DNA from: Campylobacterales bacterium
GTDB taxonomy: Bacteria; Campylobacterota; Campylobacteria; Campylobacterales; QNZT01
Direction of reading: 5' to 3'
DNA: 64,000 bases
NCBI GenBank assembly: GCA_024278835.1
Contig: JAJRSK010000033.1
Span: 1 to 64,000 of the forward strand
Shown piece after piece: positions 3,304 to 64,000 of the stretch. Numbering within the stretch: position 1 is the first letter of the stretch; every line of letters begins with the position of its first letter. The notes beneath the pieces are model-generated. The model had not been told where the DNA came from, did no database searches, and saw only the letters and a program-made list of their open reading frames with translations. The position numbers and the translations under genes were made by a program.

Positions 3304-4203
3304 ATGCACTTTATATTTAATGATGAGAAACTTGATTCTATTAAAACCGTCGGCTTAGTGATACGCCCAGACTCTAAGCACCTTCTCCCCTACTATCATA
3401 CCCTAAAATCAGCATTAGATAAACATAATGTCACCCTACTTATCGCGCAAAATTCTGCTGATATGATAGGTATTGAGGGTGGCATCTCACGGGAAGAGAT
3501 GTTTGAAAAAAGTGATATGCTTATCGCATTTGGAGGAGATGGCACTTTACTCTCTTTAAGTCGTCGCTCTTACCATCATGATAAGCCCATTCTAGGTATC
3601 AATGCTGGGAATCTTGGCTTTCTTACCGATGTCCAACTAGATGAAATAGAGGGCTTTATCAATAAGATATTTGCGGGTGAATACCGTATAGACCACCGGA
3701 TGGTTTTAGAGGTAGAACTACACGCAACTACAGGCATCAAAAAACTTATCGCAGTAAATGATGTCGTACTCTCACGTCCTTCTATCGAAGGGATGATTAA
3801 CGTAGATGCCTATGTCACTAGTAAAAATGCAGGCATGAGCGAAAAACACCTTAACCGCTACCGTGGTGATGGACTCATCATCTCAACACCTACAGGTTCT
3901 ACCGCCTACAATCTCTCTGCTGGTGGTCCTATACTCTTTCCCCTCACCGAAGCGATGATTTTGACACCTATCTGTCCACACTCTCTTACTGAACGTCCTA
4001 TGGTGTTGCCAGCTGATTTTGATGTCACTTTTAAAAGTGAAGATGAGACTATTATCGTAGTAGATGGACAAGATATCTACAATTTAAAATTTTTCGATTT
4101 TATCCGTATCAAGATAGCCTCACGCTCAGTACGTATGATTCACCGCGTAGAGCGAAACTACTTTGATGTACTCAAACAAAAACTCAACTGGGGAAGCAAT
4201 TGA
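3304..4203 (+). CDS. nadK: NAD kinase
   Basis: Phosphorylates NAD to NADP using ATP or polyphosphate. It carries the family GGDGTLL motif near residue 78, GINAGNLGFLTD, and the substrate-binding TPTGSTAYNLSAGGPI near residue 200. At 299 residues it has normal family length. It overlaps the following recN-like gene by four bases, so the two are translationally coupled, an arrangement common in Campylobacterota. Confidence 0.95.
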   Translation: MHFIFNDEKLDSIKTVGLVIRPDSKHLLPYYHTLKSALDKHNVTLLIAQNSADMIGIEGGISREEMFEKSDMLIAFGGDGTLLSLSRRSYHHDKPILGINAGNLGFLTDVQLDEIEGFINKIFAGEYRIDHRMVLEVELHATTGIKKLIAVNDVVLSRPSIEGMINVDAYVTSKNAGMSEKHLNRYRGDGLIISTPTGSTAYNLSAGGPILFPLTEAMILTPICPHSLTERPMVLPADFDVTFKSEDETIIVVDGQDIYNLKFFDFIRIKIASRSVRMIHRVERNYFDVLKQKLNWGSN

Positions 4204-5726
4204 TAGAGCGATTTTATCTCAAAAATCATCTCTCATTTAAAGAGATTGATTTAGAATTTAATGAAAATTTAGTCATATTTACAGGACCTTCGGGTGCCGG
4301 TAAGTCAATCCTCATGGAATCACTTCTCACCCTATTTGGTCTCAAAGATTGTGATGCCAAAGCGATAGAAGCTACCCTTCCTTCCAAGATAGATTTCAAA
4401 GAGAGTGGTATTGAAGCGGATGAACCTAACATCTTTAGATATACCAAAGAAAAATCTGCCCGATATTTTATCAACAACCAACAAATCAGCAAAAAAAATC
4501 TTAAAAATATCACGACACATTTCATCAACTATCTCACACTACGTGAATTTAAAGAGTTTGAAAATGACAACCTCCTCACACTACTAGACAGCATTGCTAC
4601 ACAAAAAAACAGTCATCATGATAAGAGTTTACAAACATTTAAAAGTACTTACAAAATCTTACAAGCCACACAAAAAACCTTAGAAGATATAAAAGAACAA
4701 GAGAGACAAGTCACGGAACTAAAAGAGTTCGCCCTCTTTGAAATCCAAAAGATAGAGTCGATTAATCCTTCAGAGGAAGAGTATGAAGAGTTACTCATAC
4801 AAAAAAAAGAACTCTCCAAAAAAGAGAAGTTAGAAACAGCCCTCTCTTTGGCGATGGAGATATTTCACTTTGAAGGAAAGGTAAATGATGCACTTACCAT
4901 ACTAGAAGCACCTAGCGAACAGTTTGATGATGCGATGAACGAGCTGAAAGTCACCCTTGAAAGTGCCCACGAAAGGCTCTCTGCGCTTGATGACTTAAAC
5001 ATAGAAGAGATGCTTGACAGGCTAGAAAAACTCTCCTCTTTAAAGACAAAGTATGGCTCATTAGAAGAGAGTTTGCACTATCTTGAAAAGAAAAAAGAAG
5101 AATTATCTCGTTACGAAAATATCGCTTTTGAAAAGAGTAATTTAGAAAAAGAAGTAAAAGATCTCCAAGAGAAAGTAGCCACTTTAGCACAAGCACTTTC
5201 CAAGGGGCGTAAAAAAGCACTCAACACTTTATCCGGTCGGGTTTCACACTACCTCACACTCTTGCATCTTGAAAACCTTGACTTTCATTTTACCCAAGGA
5301 GAACTGCACCCACTAGGTCATGATTTTCTCAGCATCAGCTTAAAATCCACTCCCCTAGAGAAGGTCAGTTCGGGAGAGCTAAACCGTATCCGCCTAGCAC
5401 AGCTTGCAGCTTCAAGTGAGTTTATACAAAGTGATGGTGGCGTACTCATCCTTGATGAAATCGATGCCAATTTAAGTGGTAAAGAGTCTATGAGTATCGC
5501 ACTTGTTCTTGAAGTACTTGCCAAGCATTATCAGATATTTGCCATCTCTCATCAGCCACAACTCTCTTCCAAGGCAGGTATGCACTTTCTAGTCCACAAA
5601 GAAGATGGGGAAAGCCGCGTAAAACTACTGGGAAAAGAGGAGCGGATAAACGAACTTTCACGTATGATTTCAGGAGATGAAATCACCCAAGAAGCAGTAC
5701 AGTTTGCTACAAGTTTATTATCATGA
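4200..5726 (+). CDS. recN: DNA repair ATPase RecN
   Basis: SMC-like ATPase for double-strand-break repair. Walker A is GPSGAGKS near residue 30. A charged coiled-coil middle follows (about residues 140-340), then the ABC signature SSGELNRIRLA and Walker B GGVLILDEIDANLSG, and a switch His in ISHQPQ. It starts at TTG inside the nadK stop (TTGATAGAG). At 508 residues it is shorter than E. coli RecN (about 550), which is usual for this phylum. The stop region lies in a TATCATGATA palindrome shared with the converging kinase gene. Confidence 0.9.
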   Translation: MIERFYLKNHLSFKEIDLEFNENLVIFTGPSGAGKSILMESLLTLFGLKDCDAKAIEATLPSKIDFKESGIEADEPNIFRYTKEKSARYFINNQQISKKNLKNITTHFINYLTLREFKEFENDNLLTLLDSIATQKNSHHDKSLQTFKSTYKILQATQKTLEDIKEQERQVTELKEFALFEIQKIESINPSEEEYEELLIQKKELSKKEKLETALSLAMEIFHFEGKVNDALTILEAPSEQFDDAMNELKVTLESAHERLSALDDLNIEEMLDRLEKLSSLKTKYGSLEESLHYLEKKKEELSRYENIAFEKSNLEKEVKDLQEKVATLAQALSKGRKKALNTLSGRVSHYLTLLHLENLDFHFTQGELHPLGHDFLSISLKSTPLEKVSSGELNRIRLAQLAASSEFIQSDGGVLILDEIDANLSGKESMSIALVLEVLAKHYQIFAISHQPQLSSKAGMHFLVHKEDGESRVKLLGKEERINELSRMISGDEITQEAVQFATSLLS

Positions 5727-58363: not shown

Positions 58364-58798
58364 TCAGATTCTATCTTGCATCTTTTTGTATATCTCTTTT
58401 AAATTTTCATAAACTTCTATAGCAAGTACGATAGATTCTATCATCTCATCTTCATTGTCTGGGTATTCATGTGTGAGTGTATTTCTTAGTTTTCTATAAT
58501 CTATCCATGTATCACTACTATCTAACAACTCTAATTTTTCTAGCTTATGTAACACATCTATCAAAGACATGCTACTTTTATACTCTTGTAACTCTTTTAG
58601 TACGAAGGGGAAGAACTTCTCTCCCATCTTATCTTGAATCTTGGTAAATCGATAGATAAAAAAATCAATAGTTTTAATCTTTTCAATCTCTTGAAAATCA
58701 CTTTCATGCAAAGGAAGATAACTTTTAAGCTCTGGCAAAATCGCATCAATCCTATCAAAATGTACATCAAGCTCTTTTCTAACTTGTTCAAGTGTCAT
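58364..58798 (-). CDS. hepT: HepT-type HEPN toxin
   Basis: 144 residues, all-helical. The HEPN ribonuclease motif is RNTLTHEY near residue 107 (R-x4-H-x-Y); the Tyr is the residue modified by MntA. It probably cuts RNA when free. It overlaps the antitoxin gene by four bases and lies between cas6f and the array leader. Confidence 0.88.
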   Translation of the reverse strand: MTLEQVRKELDVHFDRIDAILPELKSYLPLHESDFQEIEKIKTIDFFIYRFTKIQDKMGEKFFPFVLKELQEYKSSMSLIDVLHKLEKLELLDSSDTWIDYRKLRNTLTHEYPDNEDEMIESIVLAIEVYENLKEIYKKMQDRI

Positions 58799-59091
58799 AG
58801 TACAATACCCTCTTTTTTAGCAATTTCAAATATCTCTTTACTCTTTGTGCCATTATCCACAAGCAAATCAACCTTTTGCTCACCAAAAAGCTTCTCAAAC
58901 TCTCTTAAAAAAACTATCTTAGCGTTTAAAATCCCCTCTTTTTTATCTGTTTGGATATAAATGTCTATATCTCCACCCTTTTGAGTAACATCAGCACGAG
59001 AACCAAATATCATCACCTTAGAACTATTAAAAAGTTCCTTTGCAAGGTGCTTTATAGTCTGCTGTTGTTGCTCTTTTAATCGTATCATCAT
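58795..59091 (-). CDS. mntA: MntA-type nucleotidyltransferase antitoxin
   Basis: 98 residues. The minimal nucleotidyltransferase motif is GSRADVTQKGGDIDIYI (GSx9DxD), which transfers AMP to the HEPN Tyr and blanks the toxin. Such pairs often travel with CRISPR loci and other defence genes. Confidence 0.88.
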   Translation of the reverse strand: MMIRLKEQQQQTIKHLAKELFNSSKVMIFGSRADVTQKGGDIDIYIQTDKKEGILNAKIVFLREFEKLFGEQKVDLLVDNGTKSKEIFEIAKKEGIVL

Positions 59092-60747: not shown

Positions 60748-61635
60748 TTATCTATTTTTATTTTGTTCGCATAGGTATAATCCATGCTTTTTGTCTGCAT
60801 TATAATGCCACAGTATCTCGTCTAAAGATTCTATTTTATATGGCATGATAAATTCTCCCAAAGTTACCACACTCTCTGCGAAACGGTGTGGCACATCTGG
60901 ATCTCTTTGATTTTTTGCTTTTCCTAACCCAGAAATAGCTTGAAAACCTGTGGCTATTGGCACTATCCAACCTGCTGTTTTTCGTTTGCTTGTCCATAAC
61001 ACTTTATCTTCATCATCTTTTTCACAAGAATGGTTAATTGTCACATATTCCAAAAGAGCATCCATAGCATCCAAACCTCTATCCATAGCTTCCATCATAA
61101 GATCTCTTCGCTCCACAATGGCATAACCAGGCATAAGTTTTCGACGAACACGAGCTATGTCATCCTCTTCTTCATCTTCAACTCTTTCTATGAACGGTTT
61201 TCTCAGTTTGAAAATATCTCCACCTGCTATCTTCATTCTTGACTTTAGATGATATGCCACTCTTTCTAGTAACTTTTCTTCATCGCGTTTATGAAGTTCT
61301 GAAAATTCAATAACCAAAGAAATATCAAGATGTATTCTAGCTTCCTCTATAAAGGCAGGTCGTTTGCCATCTTTGTCTACAGGATTACTTGTGCCAATAA
61401 TAGAGTTTACATAATCTCCAACTCCTTTATGCACTTGTAAATCAGCCTTATGACTCACAACACCTATCGCATTAAACTTCAAATTTGACAAACCATCACT
61501 ATTAAGCTTCCGTTGTAGAGCATGGACAGCACCTAACCATGCAGTCATGGCAGGAAATCCTATAGTAAAAGAACTAGAAAGTGCATTTGCATTGTGTACC
61601 TCTATATGAGGTATTATCAAAATCATCTTTATCAT
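60748..61635 (-). CDS. csy2: Csy2/Cas5f subunit
   Basis: 295 residues. IIPHIEVHNANALSSSFTIGFPAMTAWLGAVHAL is the family opening. It binds the crRNA 5' handle together with Csy1. It overlaps csy1 by four bases. Confidence 0.95.
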   Translation of the reverse strand: MIKMILIIPHIEVHNANALSSSFTIGFPAMTAWLGAVHALQRKLNSDGLSNLKFNAIGVVSHKADLQVHKGVGDYVNSIIGTSNPVDKDGKRPAFIEEARIHLDISLVIEFSELHKRDEEKLLERVAYHLKSRMKIAGGDIFKLRKPFIERVEDEEEDDIARVRRKLMPGYAIVERRDLMMEAMDRGLDAMDALLEYVTINHSCEKDDEDKVLWTSKRKTAGWIVPIATGFQAISGLGKAKNQRDPDVPHRFAESVVTLGEFIMPYKIESLDEILWHYNADKKHGLYLCEQNKNR

Positions 61636-62915
61636 CGTAGTACCTCCTTATATTTTTCAAGAAGTGCCAACAGATGCAAATATTCAGATTTTCCAAATTT
61701 AATATACTCTTTCTTCCCTATAACTTTTTTATACCCCACATCAATGATCCATCGTGCTATCTCTTTCATTATCTTATCTAGCCATTCATCATCTTTTTCT
61801 CTCTCCATCTGATAATGTTCATTATCAATCAACCATACTTTTTGATGATATTTTAGTTTGGAGTTTTTCTCATAATACTGTTCTTTAGAAACACTTCGTA
61901 TCGCCCACATTTTATCAATGATTCTATCTATGATTTCCCCATAACGATAATCTCTGCCCTCTCGGATATTAATATTGTTATAATTTGTTTTATAGATGTT
62001 ATCCAAAGCAAAAAAAGTCTCTTTAAACTCCCAAATAGATATGGAATTTTTAAAAAAGTCTATTTTGGGAAAATGAATTTCTCTTTTCTCTAAAGTAGGT
62101 GGCATAGAATAAATAAGTTGTGCTTTCCCTCCATTTCGGGAGTTTAATACAGAGATATTTTGAGGTTTAGTTCCTCCATAGCCGATGGTAGTGAGATTAA
62201 AAATCTCTCGATACCCATCCTCTGAAAATTTATTATTTTTTTTGCTATTTCGTAATGTTTTTAAATGTTCTTTCTCCTCTTCATCTTCTCCAAATCGTAT
62301 CTTATTGAGTCGTTTTCTTAGCTCAAAAAGCATCCCCGAATTTGTCAAAATAGAGAGTTGATGGTAACTATCTTCCACAGGAAAATAGACCTGCTTTATC
62401 TTTGAGCTTGTTACCATCTCATTAGAAGTTGAAATCATTGCCAAAAACTCATCTCGCAATACATCATAAGGCTTAGTACTTATTGTCAAAAGAGAGATTG
62501 CTAATGGAGTCTCTTTTTGTATGTGCTCTATCAACTGTTGACCATCAGGCATAAGTAGTGTTAAAAATTTATGCACATCTAACGCTGCAGCATTACCCAA
62601 AGCATCACTAGGAACTCTTACATTTCCAGTTCGTAAAAAGCCATCATCACTTTGCTCCACCTTCGCTATAATGGAAGTGACATAACCATTTTTATTTTTT
62701 CTAGCACTTGGATGAGAAAAAGTACAAGGATGTGTTGCTATTGAGATTTGCTTAGCTCTTTTTGAAGCATTGGGCAACCAAATTTCTCTTGAAAACTCTC
62801 TAACAGCCTTTTGATGTAACTCTAAAATCTCCTCCTCATTCATTGAAGATTTACGATTCTTTTTTATCCAAGCCTCTTTTCTTTCATCAAAAAACTTGGA
62901 TATTATCTCATTCAT
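61632..62915 (-). CDS. csy1: Csy1/Cas8f PAM-recognition subunit
   Basis: GNAAALDVHKFLTLL and GYGGTKPQNISVLNSRNGG are diagnostic. I place the start at 62915 (MNEIISKFF) behind GGGAGAA, not at the track's 62966; this gives 427 residues, close to Pseudomonas Csy1. It is separate from Csy2, so this is I-F1 and not the fused form of transposon-borne I-F3. In the family this subunit reads the CC PAM. Confidence 0.94.
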   Translation of the reverse strand: MNEIISKFFDERKEAWIKKNRKSSMNEEEILELHQKAVREFSREIWLPNASKRAKQISIATHPCTFSHPSARKNKNGYVTSIIAKVEQSDDGFLRTGNVRVPSDALGNAAALDVHKFLTLLMPDGQQLIEHIQKETPLAISLLTISTKPYDVLRDEFLAMISTSNEMVTSSKIKQVYFPVEDSYHQLSILTNSGMLFELRKRLNKIRFGEDEEEKEHLKTLRNSKKNNKFSEDGYREIFNLTTIGYGGTKPQNISVLNSRNGGKAQLIYSMPPTLEKREIHFPKIDFFKNSISIWEFKETFFALDNIYKTNYNNINIREGRDYRYGEIIDRIIDKMWAIRSVSKEQYYEKNSKLKYHQKVWLIDNEHYQMEREKDDEWLDKIMKEIARWIIDVGYKKVIGKKEYIKFGKSEYLHLLALLEKYKEVLR

Positions 62916-62931
62916 ACTTATTGTTCTCCCT

Positions 62932-62960
62932 TTGACATATTTTGAATTATATGGTATAAT
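62932..62960 (+). promoter_or_regulatory. Perfect sigma-70 promoter facing the toxin gene
   Basis: TTGACA (62932-62937), exactly 17 bases, TATAAT (62955-62960). Start expected near 62967. The -10 is half of a mirrored ATTATA-TGG-TATAAT, so a minus-strand -10 (62951-62946) for csy1 overlaps it and the two directions would compete. Confidence 0.75.
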
Positions 62961-62966
62961 AGCCAT

Positions 62967-63076
62967 GACAGAGTTATCTCTGCAACTAAAACCATCGGAG
63001 TTCGTTTCGGACGTTAAGCTAGGGATTATCTAGGTAAAGCATTAGCAAACACCCGTAAAATTGAGTAGTTTTTGGT
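62967..63076 (+). ncRNA. Candidate structured small RNA between csy1 and the toxin gene
   Basis: Follows the perfect promoter. Four successive hairpins can be drawn: CAGAG/CTCTG with loop TTAT; GTTCG/CGGAC with loop TTT (one G-U pair); CTAG/CTAG with a 7-base loop; and TGAGTAG/CTACTCA at 63055-63076, abutting the toxin stop. A 22-codon ORF from ATG 62965 exists but begins at or before the start point and has no ribosome site. No Rfam family is recognised. Readthrough would make antisense RNA to the toxin messenger. Confidence 0.45.
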
Positions 63077-63490
63077 CTACTCATCTTTCTCAAAAATCGT
63101 TTTTAACTCTAATCTTTTATCCTTATAAATTCTTAGTTTTACCAGCTTGATAGTCTTGTTATCATACTTTTTATAAAATTCCAAACTTACCAAACTAGCC
63201 CCAGTTTTACTATCTTTTGTGATATTTTTCCTGACATCTAAAAAACTCTCTATAATCTCTGGTATCTCACAAATATAAAAAATATCATTAGGATGTCCTC
63301 TCCTTACATGTCTAACACTATGACTACTTATAACACCCAAATAACCACCTAAGTTTATATGTAATCTTTTTTGCACTCTTTGGATAGTTATTTCAGAGAT
63401 TAAAAAAGACAACTCTTCGTTGAACTGTCTATTTTCTATAGAGGTCTTAACAAAAAGACAAATCTCTTCTCGTTTTAACTTTGATGACAA
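63077..63490 (-). CDS. Putative BECR-fold (PBECR-like) nuclease, candidate CRISPR-guarded toxin
   Basis: 137 residues, starting at TTG with AAAAGGAG just upstream. The last 80 residues, with ISSHSVRHVRRGHP, IFYICEIPEIIES, LEFYKKYDNKTIKLVKLRIY and LELKTIFEK, follow the layout of the phage Barnase-EndoU-ColicinE5/D-RelE class: a His-bearing helix, an IPEII turn, then four strands. It is no known cas subunit, yet stands between cas3 and csy1. Its leader holds a mini-CRISPR aimed at its own promoter. The nuclease call is by eye and could be wrong; its placement and regulation do not depend on it. Confidence 0.55.
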   Translation of the reverse strand: MSSKLKREEICLFVKTSIENRQFNEELSFLISEITIQRVQKRLHINLGGYLGVISSHSVRHVRRGHPNDIFYICEIPEIIESFLDVRKNITKDSKTGASLVSLEFYKKYDNKTIKLVKLRIYKDKRLELKTIFEKDE

Positions 63491-63502
63491 GTTACTCCTT
63501 TT

Positions 63503-63578
63503 ACTTTACGCTACCTATTCGACAGTTTACCTCTAATAACCATTTAAACCTTTCTAAGATACTTATTCAGCATTAATA
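63503..63578 (-). CRISPR. Degenerate two-repeat mini-CRISPR (CreA/CreR-like) in the toxin leader
   Basis: On the minus strand the first pseudo-repeat (63578-63551, 19/28 to the array repeat) keeps the handle CTTAGAAA exactly. A 20-base spacer (63550-63531) follows, then a second pseudo-repeat (63530-63503, 22/28) keeping GTAAACTG...GGTAGC. The first hairpin is ATGCT/AGTAT instead of CTGCC/GGTAG: two pairs changed on both sides and pairing kept. The second stem keeps pairing with one added wobble (CTGTC/GGTAG). Both could be Cas6f substrates and would release an 8+20+20 nt guide. The toxin ribosome site begins at 63501. Confidence 0.85.
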
Positions 63579-63592
63579 ACCATTTAAACAGG
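63571..63592 (-). promoter_or_regulatory. Protospacer with CC PAM targeted by the mini-CRISPR spacer
   Basis: Minus strand: CC at 63592-63591, then 20 bases (63590-63571) matching the mini-CRISPR spacer at positions 2-17 and 20, 17/20 overall. CC immediately 5' of the protospacer is the type I-F PAM. The site begins about six bases after the -10 box, at the transcription start, so a bound Csy complex would block initiation. Confidence 0.8.
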
Positions 63593-63597
63593 ATAAT

Positions 63598-63603
63598 ATT
63601 ATA
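63598..63603 (-). promoter_or_regulatory. -10 box of the mini-CRISPR/toxin transcript
   Basis: TATAAT on the minus strand, six bases after the cas3 stop codon (63609). The -35 is weak (TTGGAA-like at about 63628-63623), as often in Campylobacterota, where -35 boxes are poorly conserved. Confidence 0.65.
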
Positions 63604-63608
63604 TAATC

Positions 63609-64000
63609 TTAAACCTTAACTATTCCAAACTGATCACTATACTCATACGAACTATCTTCATAGTAGCCAAAACTCAACTCCCCATACTTTATAGAAATAG
63701 CTCTTTTAGATTTATCGAACTTTTCTACCAAAGTATTATAGTCTCGTTTCAACCATAACCCTTTTTCCACCTCATCATCAATCTCTATCTTATTTATCTG
63801 TAAAATCTCTTCTCTTTTTATGATATTATCATATCCCTCTATTTCACAAAACGAATAGGCTTTATCATCTTCATCATAAACCAAAAAAACTTTTTGTGTT
63901 GGTTCACTCTCTCTAAAAGGGTGTAAGTATTGTGGGTGTGCTGTCAAAAACCAATTCTCATCTAAGTAGCCTTGCAAACCTGTTGCTCCCTTTTTATCAT
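63609..64000 (-). CDS. cas3: Probable Cas3 (Cas2-3) C-terminus, cut by window edge
   Basis: The frame is open to the right edge (DKKGATGLQGYLDENWFLTA...), so the track's TTG start is not the real one. About 130 residues remain. Position directly upstream of csy1 in the same direction is where type I-F loci carry the Cas2-Cas3 fusion helicase-nuclease, and LQGYLDENWFLTAHPQYLHPFR suits its C-terminal accessory region. No catalytic motif falls inside the window. cas1 would be expected further right. Confidence 0.6.
   Translation of the reverse strand, partial: DKKGATGLQGYLDENWFLTAHPQYLHPFRESEPTQKVFLVYDEDDKAYSFCEIEGYDNIIKREEILQINKIEIDDEVEKGLWLKRDYNTLVEKFDKSKRAISIKYGELSFGYYEDSSYEYSDQFGIVKV

Follow-up and report, generated by a model that had tools for sequence, protein, structure and literature searches.

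The Locus

The DNA analysed here (the window) comprises 64,000 nucleotides (nt), positions 1-64,000 of contig JAJRSK010000033.1 from a Campylobacterales bacterium. It contains a type I-F CRISPR (clustered regularly interspaced short palindromic repeats) locus, and between the cas genes of this locus two elements converge: a predicted small RNA on the + strand (62967-63090, the start being placed from the promoter and the 3′ end being approximate), which is conserved according to both BLASTN and a covariance model, and a predicted gene for a PBECR3-like ribonuclease on the − strand (63077-63490), here called the toxin gene, whose last codons are overlapped by the 3′ hairpin of the RNA. The RNA is probably the antitoxin of this convergent ribonuclease, with an added CRISPR layer in this genome.

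The promoter of the RNA (62932-62960, + strand) consists of TTGACA (62932-62937), a spacing of 17 nt and TATAAT (62955-62960), with TG before the −10 element. The first-pass annotation had identified this exact consensus, correctly, and had called it rare in the phylum. The promoter is the sole site in the window with 0 or 1 mismatch to TTGACA-N17-TATAAT, but shuffled sequence yields a mean of 0.95 such matches, and the string by itself is thus within chance. What raises it above chance is its conservation in toxin-linked copies of the RNA (L018, L016, L017, L025, L026, L030, L033, L028, L029 and L036), where 10-12 of the 12 promoter bases are present with a spacing of 17-18. The mirrored −10 element of csy1, also claimed by the annotation, is present as a second TATAAT on the − strand (62946-62951), upstream of the likely csy1 start at 62915.

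Structure, Strand and Family of the RNA

Folding by energy alone was uninformative, the predicted RNA folding no better than shuffled sequences (minimum free energy z −0.65), whereas covariation among the copies lends support to five helices between 62996 and 63083. P2 pairs CGG (62996-62998) with CCG (63053-63055), for which distant copies use other pair types; P3 is a hairpin of CGU (63003-63005) with ACG (63011-63013) and is the weakest helix, with few double changes; P4 pairs GCUA (63018-63021) with UAGC (63043-63046) and encloses P5, UUAU (63026-63029) with GUAA (63034-63037); and P6 (63062-63083) is the hairpin UGAGUAG-UUUUUGGU-CUACUCA, which has a conserved loop and overlaps the toxin stop codon. 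In addition, the predicted 5′ end carries a hairpin, P1 (CAGAG-CUCUG, 62969-62982), whose sequence varies; many toxin-linked copies have a hairpin here, though some do not. The first-pass annotation, which described four drawable hairpins, was right that the RNA is structured.

Covariance model R1 was built from 14 RNA copies, including that of the window, whose conserved core (62985-63085) scores 113.8 bits as a member of the building set. A search with R1 recovered 38 distinct copies, in which 96% of cells pair and 17 of the 21 base pairs have double (compensatory) changes; there are 159 double-change cells, whereas shuffles average 41.5 ± 6.4 (0/500 reach the observed figure) and slid versions have no more than 29. 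As this alignment is fitted to R1, the fairer test is alignment A6, made with MAFFT independently of model fitting, where double changes occur in 11/21 pairs (39 cells, 0/500 shuffles). The RNA is thus genuine, and it recurs.

Within the helices, G-U occupies 35 cells and A-C 6, so the RNA is assigned to the + strand. The same count, together with the promoter, rules out a 3′ untranslated region of the toxin mRNA on the − strand. A small open reading frame (ORF) on the RNA (frame KPSEFVSDVKL) was rejected as coding because it has a stop in many copies, which read GTTTAGGACG. In Rfam, the RNA matched no family at the gathering threshold and only at chance level at a relaxed threshold, in agreement with the view of the annotation that no known family fits. 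No tandem repeats were found in 62900-63700.

The Predicted Toxin Gene

The toxin gene encodes 137 amino acids from a TTG start after AAGGAG. The protein matches Pfam PF18812 with an E-value of 6.7e-7, the annotated protein reaching 29.7 bits (the curated cut-off is 30) and a genome scan 30.5 bits over a stretch that takes in the toxin stop codon. PBECR3 is the only Pfam family found, and there is no ToxN/AbiQ family match. Seven residues, Y50, H61, H66, T96, K125, K130 and T131, are invariant in 18 toxin sequences (alignment A7). The AlphaFold2 model has a predicted local distance difference test score (pLDDT) of 94.9; a fold search of the PDB with the toxin gave no significant match. The protein is predicted to be a ribonuclease (RNase) of the BECR fold with conserved His and Thr residues, the active site of that fold being treated in PMC5512222.

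Occurrence and Pairing of the RNA and the Toxin

A first BLASTN search of 59 genomes found RNA copies in G014, G017 and, weakly, G040; pattern searches added copies in IMG/VR contigs, and protein and DNA searches brought in L018 and a plasmid of Arcobacter cloacae. Among INPHARED phages there was no blastn match to the RNA and no tblastn match to the toxin. When toxin and RNA were sought in the same sample of 399 genomes of the order, the toxin subfamily was found in 17 and the RNA in 23: all 17 toxin genomes carry the RNA, against 6/382 of the others (Fisher 3e-25, uncorrected for kinship). The link to the toxin gene, which the first-pass annotation had suspected, is borne out by these counts. 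A phylum-wide sample overlapped genomes already examined and was left out as independent evidence.

Eighteen toxin-RNA pairs were compared, one from the window and 17 from loci of genomes or phages. Every pair (18/18) is convergent, with the end of the RNA model between −6 and +10 nt from the end of the toxin or domain, and the distance matrices of RNA and toxin correlate (Mantel r 0.67, p 5e-5). In G054, G127, G196 and G396, the PBECR3 domain is part of a long ORF (at least 665 amino acids), and the RNA is antisense in the ORF directly after the domain.

No toxin of this subfamily without the RNA was found in the genomes and loci searched. The RNA, by contrast, stands beside a broken or trimmed toxin gene in L045 and L038, and probably also in L063 and L068, where matches are weak; it is found alone, in the stretch examined, in G040, G061, G202, G252, G271 and G278; and it also occurs without the toxin in phage contigs. 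That the RNA outlasts the toxin, while the reverse was not seen, is as expected of an antitoxin, although this is an argument and not a demonstration. Six of the phage contigs (L037, L039, L041, L043, L044 and L047) belong to one lineage by their shared neighbours, and 6/6 encode an RNA ligase (PF09414), whose gene adjoins the RNA in L037, L039, L041 and L043. Near-consensus promoters are present at many toxin-linked RNA copies and not at the phage copies of this lineage. In G271 (L067, 1-879), an ORF without a Pfam match ends approximately 600 bases from the RNA, and by eye its middle resembles a BECR-type domain.

CRISPR Surroundings and the CreA-like Element

The gene csy1 (cas8f; 61632-62915, − strand) diverges from the RNA promoter and is followed by csy2, csy3 and cas6f, down to 59126; cas2-3 and cas1 continue rightward. 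Upstream of the toxin gene, on the − strand, there is a CreA-like element: degenerate repeat 1 (63551-63578; 9 mismatches to the array repeat), which ends in the handle CTTAGAAA; a 20-nt spacer, GGTTTAAATGGTTATTAGAG (63531-63550); and degenerate repeat 2 (63503-63530; 6 mismatches). Of all sites in the window that lie outside the array, repeat 2 is the closest to the array repeat and repeat 1 shares second place. The spacer has a candidate target on the − strand (63571-63592), namely a protospacer (63571-63590) with a CC protospacer-adjacent motif (PAM; 63591-63592); a TATAAT (63598-63603) lies just upstream of it, and the toxin gene comes after. Type I CRISPR guides leave positions 6 and 12 unpaired, and the mismatch count skips these positions. 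Spacer and protospacer have 1 counted mismatch, the next best of the 4534 sites in the window having 5. With degenerate repeats around a spacer, and a promoter target with the right PAM, the toxin gene appears to have the attributes of a gene controlled in the manner of CreTA/CrePA.

The same layout is present in G017 (element at L017 6293-6363), with a weaker target of 3 counted mismatches (next best 5). No CreA-like element was seen in G014 on inspection by eye. In G325 (L018, 90-1447), the toxin gene stands directly after cas1, on the same strand, inside a type I-F cas operon; it lies there between cas1 and cas2-3 without a CreA-like element. Elsewhere in the window, an MNT/HEPN-type pair (HEPN-like and nucleotidyltransferase genes; 58364-59091, − strand) lies between the CRISPR array and cas6f.

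Proposed Function of the RNA

Sequence comparison shows that the RNA copies form a family, on which strand the RNA lies and how it is structured, and that it is paired with the toxin and diverges along with it; it also shows the CreA-like element with its target. In the mechanism proposed, a strong sigma-70 promoter would make the RNA, which would fold into its multi-helix structure and most likely bind the nuclease directly and block it, by analogy with type III RNA antitoxins. In this genome, the guide from the CreA-like mini-CRISPR would direct the Csy complex to the promoter of the toxin gene, adding a further layer of repression. If CRISPR were lost or inhibited, more toxin would be transcribed, and as this transcription runs antisense through the RNA gene, the balance could tip toward the toxin.

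Several points weigh against this proposal. Toxicity, RNA-protein binding, the target, control by CRISPR (Csy) and the tipping step are parts that we infer. A constantly abundant RNA leaves no clear route from loss of CRISPR to free toxin. An intrinsic terminator was not consistently found across RNA copies, and kinship among genomes inflates the co-occurrence statistics. Finally, 30 canonical PF18812 loci of other genomes were without the RNA: PBECR3 domains can do without it, and the RNA is therefore tied to this toxin subfamily.

The first-pass annotation had offered three identities for the RNA (an antisense regulator, a second CreT-like RNA and the RNA end of a lost mobile element), none of which is supported. 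As a type I-like cis-antisense regulator, the RNA or its read-through would pair with the 3′ end of the toxin mRNA and lower the mRNA level. All pairs are indeed convergent with little or no gap and, because no clear terminator was seen, read-through into the toxin gene is possible; yet it is structure that has been conserved rather than complementarity, which amounts to a few overlapping bases at most, and the solo RNA keeps both structure and sequence in phage contigs and is also present in toxin-free genomes, so that antisense control is unlikely and the pairing typical of type I toxin-antitoxin systems appears to be lacking. The RNA could instead be needed by the nuclease as an activating cofactor or guide, which would fit the regular pairing and the co-divergence as well as an antitoxin does. 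This is quite improbable, however, given that no variable guide-like segment was seen, the predicted RNA opening with hairpin P1, and that an RNA which outlives its toxin at several loci and occurs solo would be odd for a cofactor.

The position of the RNA between cas genes in the window, G017 and G325, and the overlap of its promoter with the −10 element of csy1, would suit an element that controls cas genes, or a CreT/CreA-like CRISPR RNA. Such a role is highly improbable: copies, some with the toxin, are found at sites with no cas gene in view (in G014, for example, next to a clpB-like gene, and in the prophage-like contig L036), and the most CRISPR-repeat-like sequence within the RNA has 13 mismatches, which is chance level (null median 14). 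As the RNA also occurs solo, both in phage contigs and on other replicons, it could be a phage-borne or mobile RNA that has an independent role and merely travels with the toxin; the fixed distance and orientation in 18/18 pairs and the co-divergence with the toxin speak against this, and we give it very little credence. As for the end of a lost mobile element, the presence of the RNA at the toxin tail in 17/17 toxin genomes indicates a partner gene and not a scar.

Comparison with Known Systems

The proposed antitoxin and its nuclease share with type III toxin-antitoxin systems (ToxIN, CptIN, TenpIN) an RNase toxin gene and a structured RNA proposed as its neutraliser. ToxI-type RNAs are tandem repeats that precede the toxin gene on its own strand and are transcribed together with it through a terminator, whereas the RNA described here is single, non-repeated and convergent, with its own promoter, and the toxin is of the PBECR3/BECR type rather than ToxN. 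Three defining features of type III are thus absent, i.e., a ToxN/AbiQ toxin, a tandem-repeat RNA and upstream co-transcription. For a fourth, inhibition of the toxin by binding of the RNA, co-divergence and asymmetric loss would provide indirect support. The AbiF-RCd22 system of C. difficile has an RNA of similar kind, roughly 100-130 nt with its own promoter (PMC12373285). RCd22 is made from a sigma-A promoter and counteracts a protein toxin both in cis and in trans, but it lies upstream on the same strand, has two abiF motifs, and its toxin is of the Abi_2/AbiD/F family (PMC12373285). By analogy, the RNA would resemble type III and AbiF RNAs in its working; membership of a class is a separate matter.

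CreTA and CrePA modules (PMC8501985, PMC9458426, PMC10097628, PMC12737573) likewise have a degenerate repeat-spacer-repeat beside a toxin, a spacer that matches a promoter and a type I cas locus. The toxin is an RNA in the case of CreT and a KilA-N protein in that of CreP, whereas here there is a PBECR3-like nuclease with an additional conserved RNA partner, which itself lacks the CRISPR-repeat-like sequence of CreTA RNAs. The PBECR domains of polyvalent phage proteins (PMC5512222) belong to the same nuclease superfamily, and four copies here likewise lie in large ORFs; the passages on PBECR in that paper do not mention an RNA partner, and the canonical PF18812 loci examined here were without the RNA. 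No RNA partner for PBECR3 was found in the freely accessible journal articles searched.

If the proposed function is true, the locus would contribute an RNA family that is absent from Rfam and a toxin-antitoxin design in which a convergent single-copy structured RNA opposes a BECR nuclease, and it would give a candidate partner to the PBECR3-like domains, which are known from polyvalent proteins of phages. The CreA-like element would bring a different protein toxin to the CRISPR-repressed modules, listed as an open question in a review (PMC12737573), and the solo RNA on phages makes RNA counter-defence open to direct test.

A Possible tRNA Target

The P6 loop contains UUUUGGU, which is the anticodon loop of the host tRNA-Gln(UUG). 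The chance of such a match is about 0.5% for a random 8-mer, but 2/28 letter shuffles also gave one, and the loop has 8 bases, not 7, and varies in some copies; the match may be seen as weak evidence, only a lead. Colicins D and E5, which are BECR relatives, cleave anticodon loops, suggesting a tRNA target for the toxin. A tentative and, taken as a whole, rather doubtful extension would be that the toxin subfamily has an anticodon loop as its cleavage site, with tRNA-Gln as the first candidate, and is inhibited by P6 as a mimic, that solo phage RNA and RNA ligases protect phage translation, and that some bacteria use a toxin repressed by Csy-CreA as a guard of CRISPR. The P6 loops of L025, L059, L028, L029, L067 and L069 differ (UAGGUGGU, UAUGUGGU, UUUUCGGU, AUUUGGGU), with GGU constant, which could reflect changed specificity or drift. 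Phage contig L040 has two RNA copies (3832-3932 and 4448-4539), one with a toxin and the other solo and differing in its P6 loop (UAAUUGGU).
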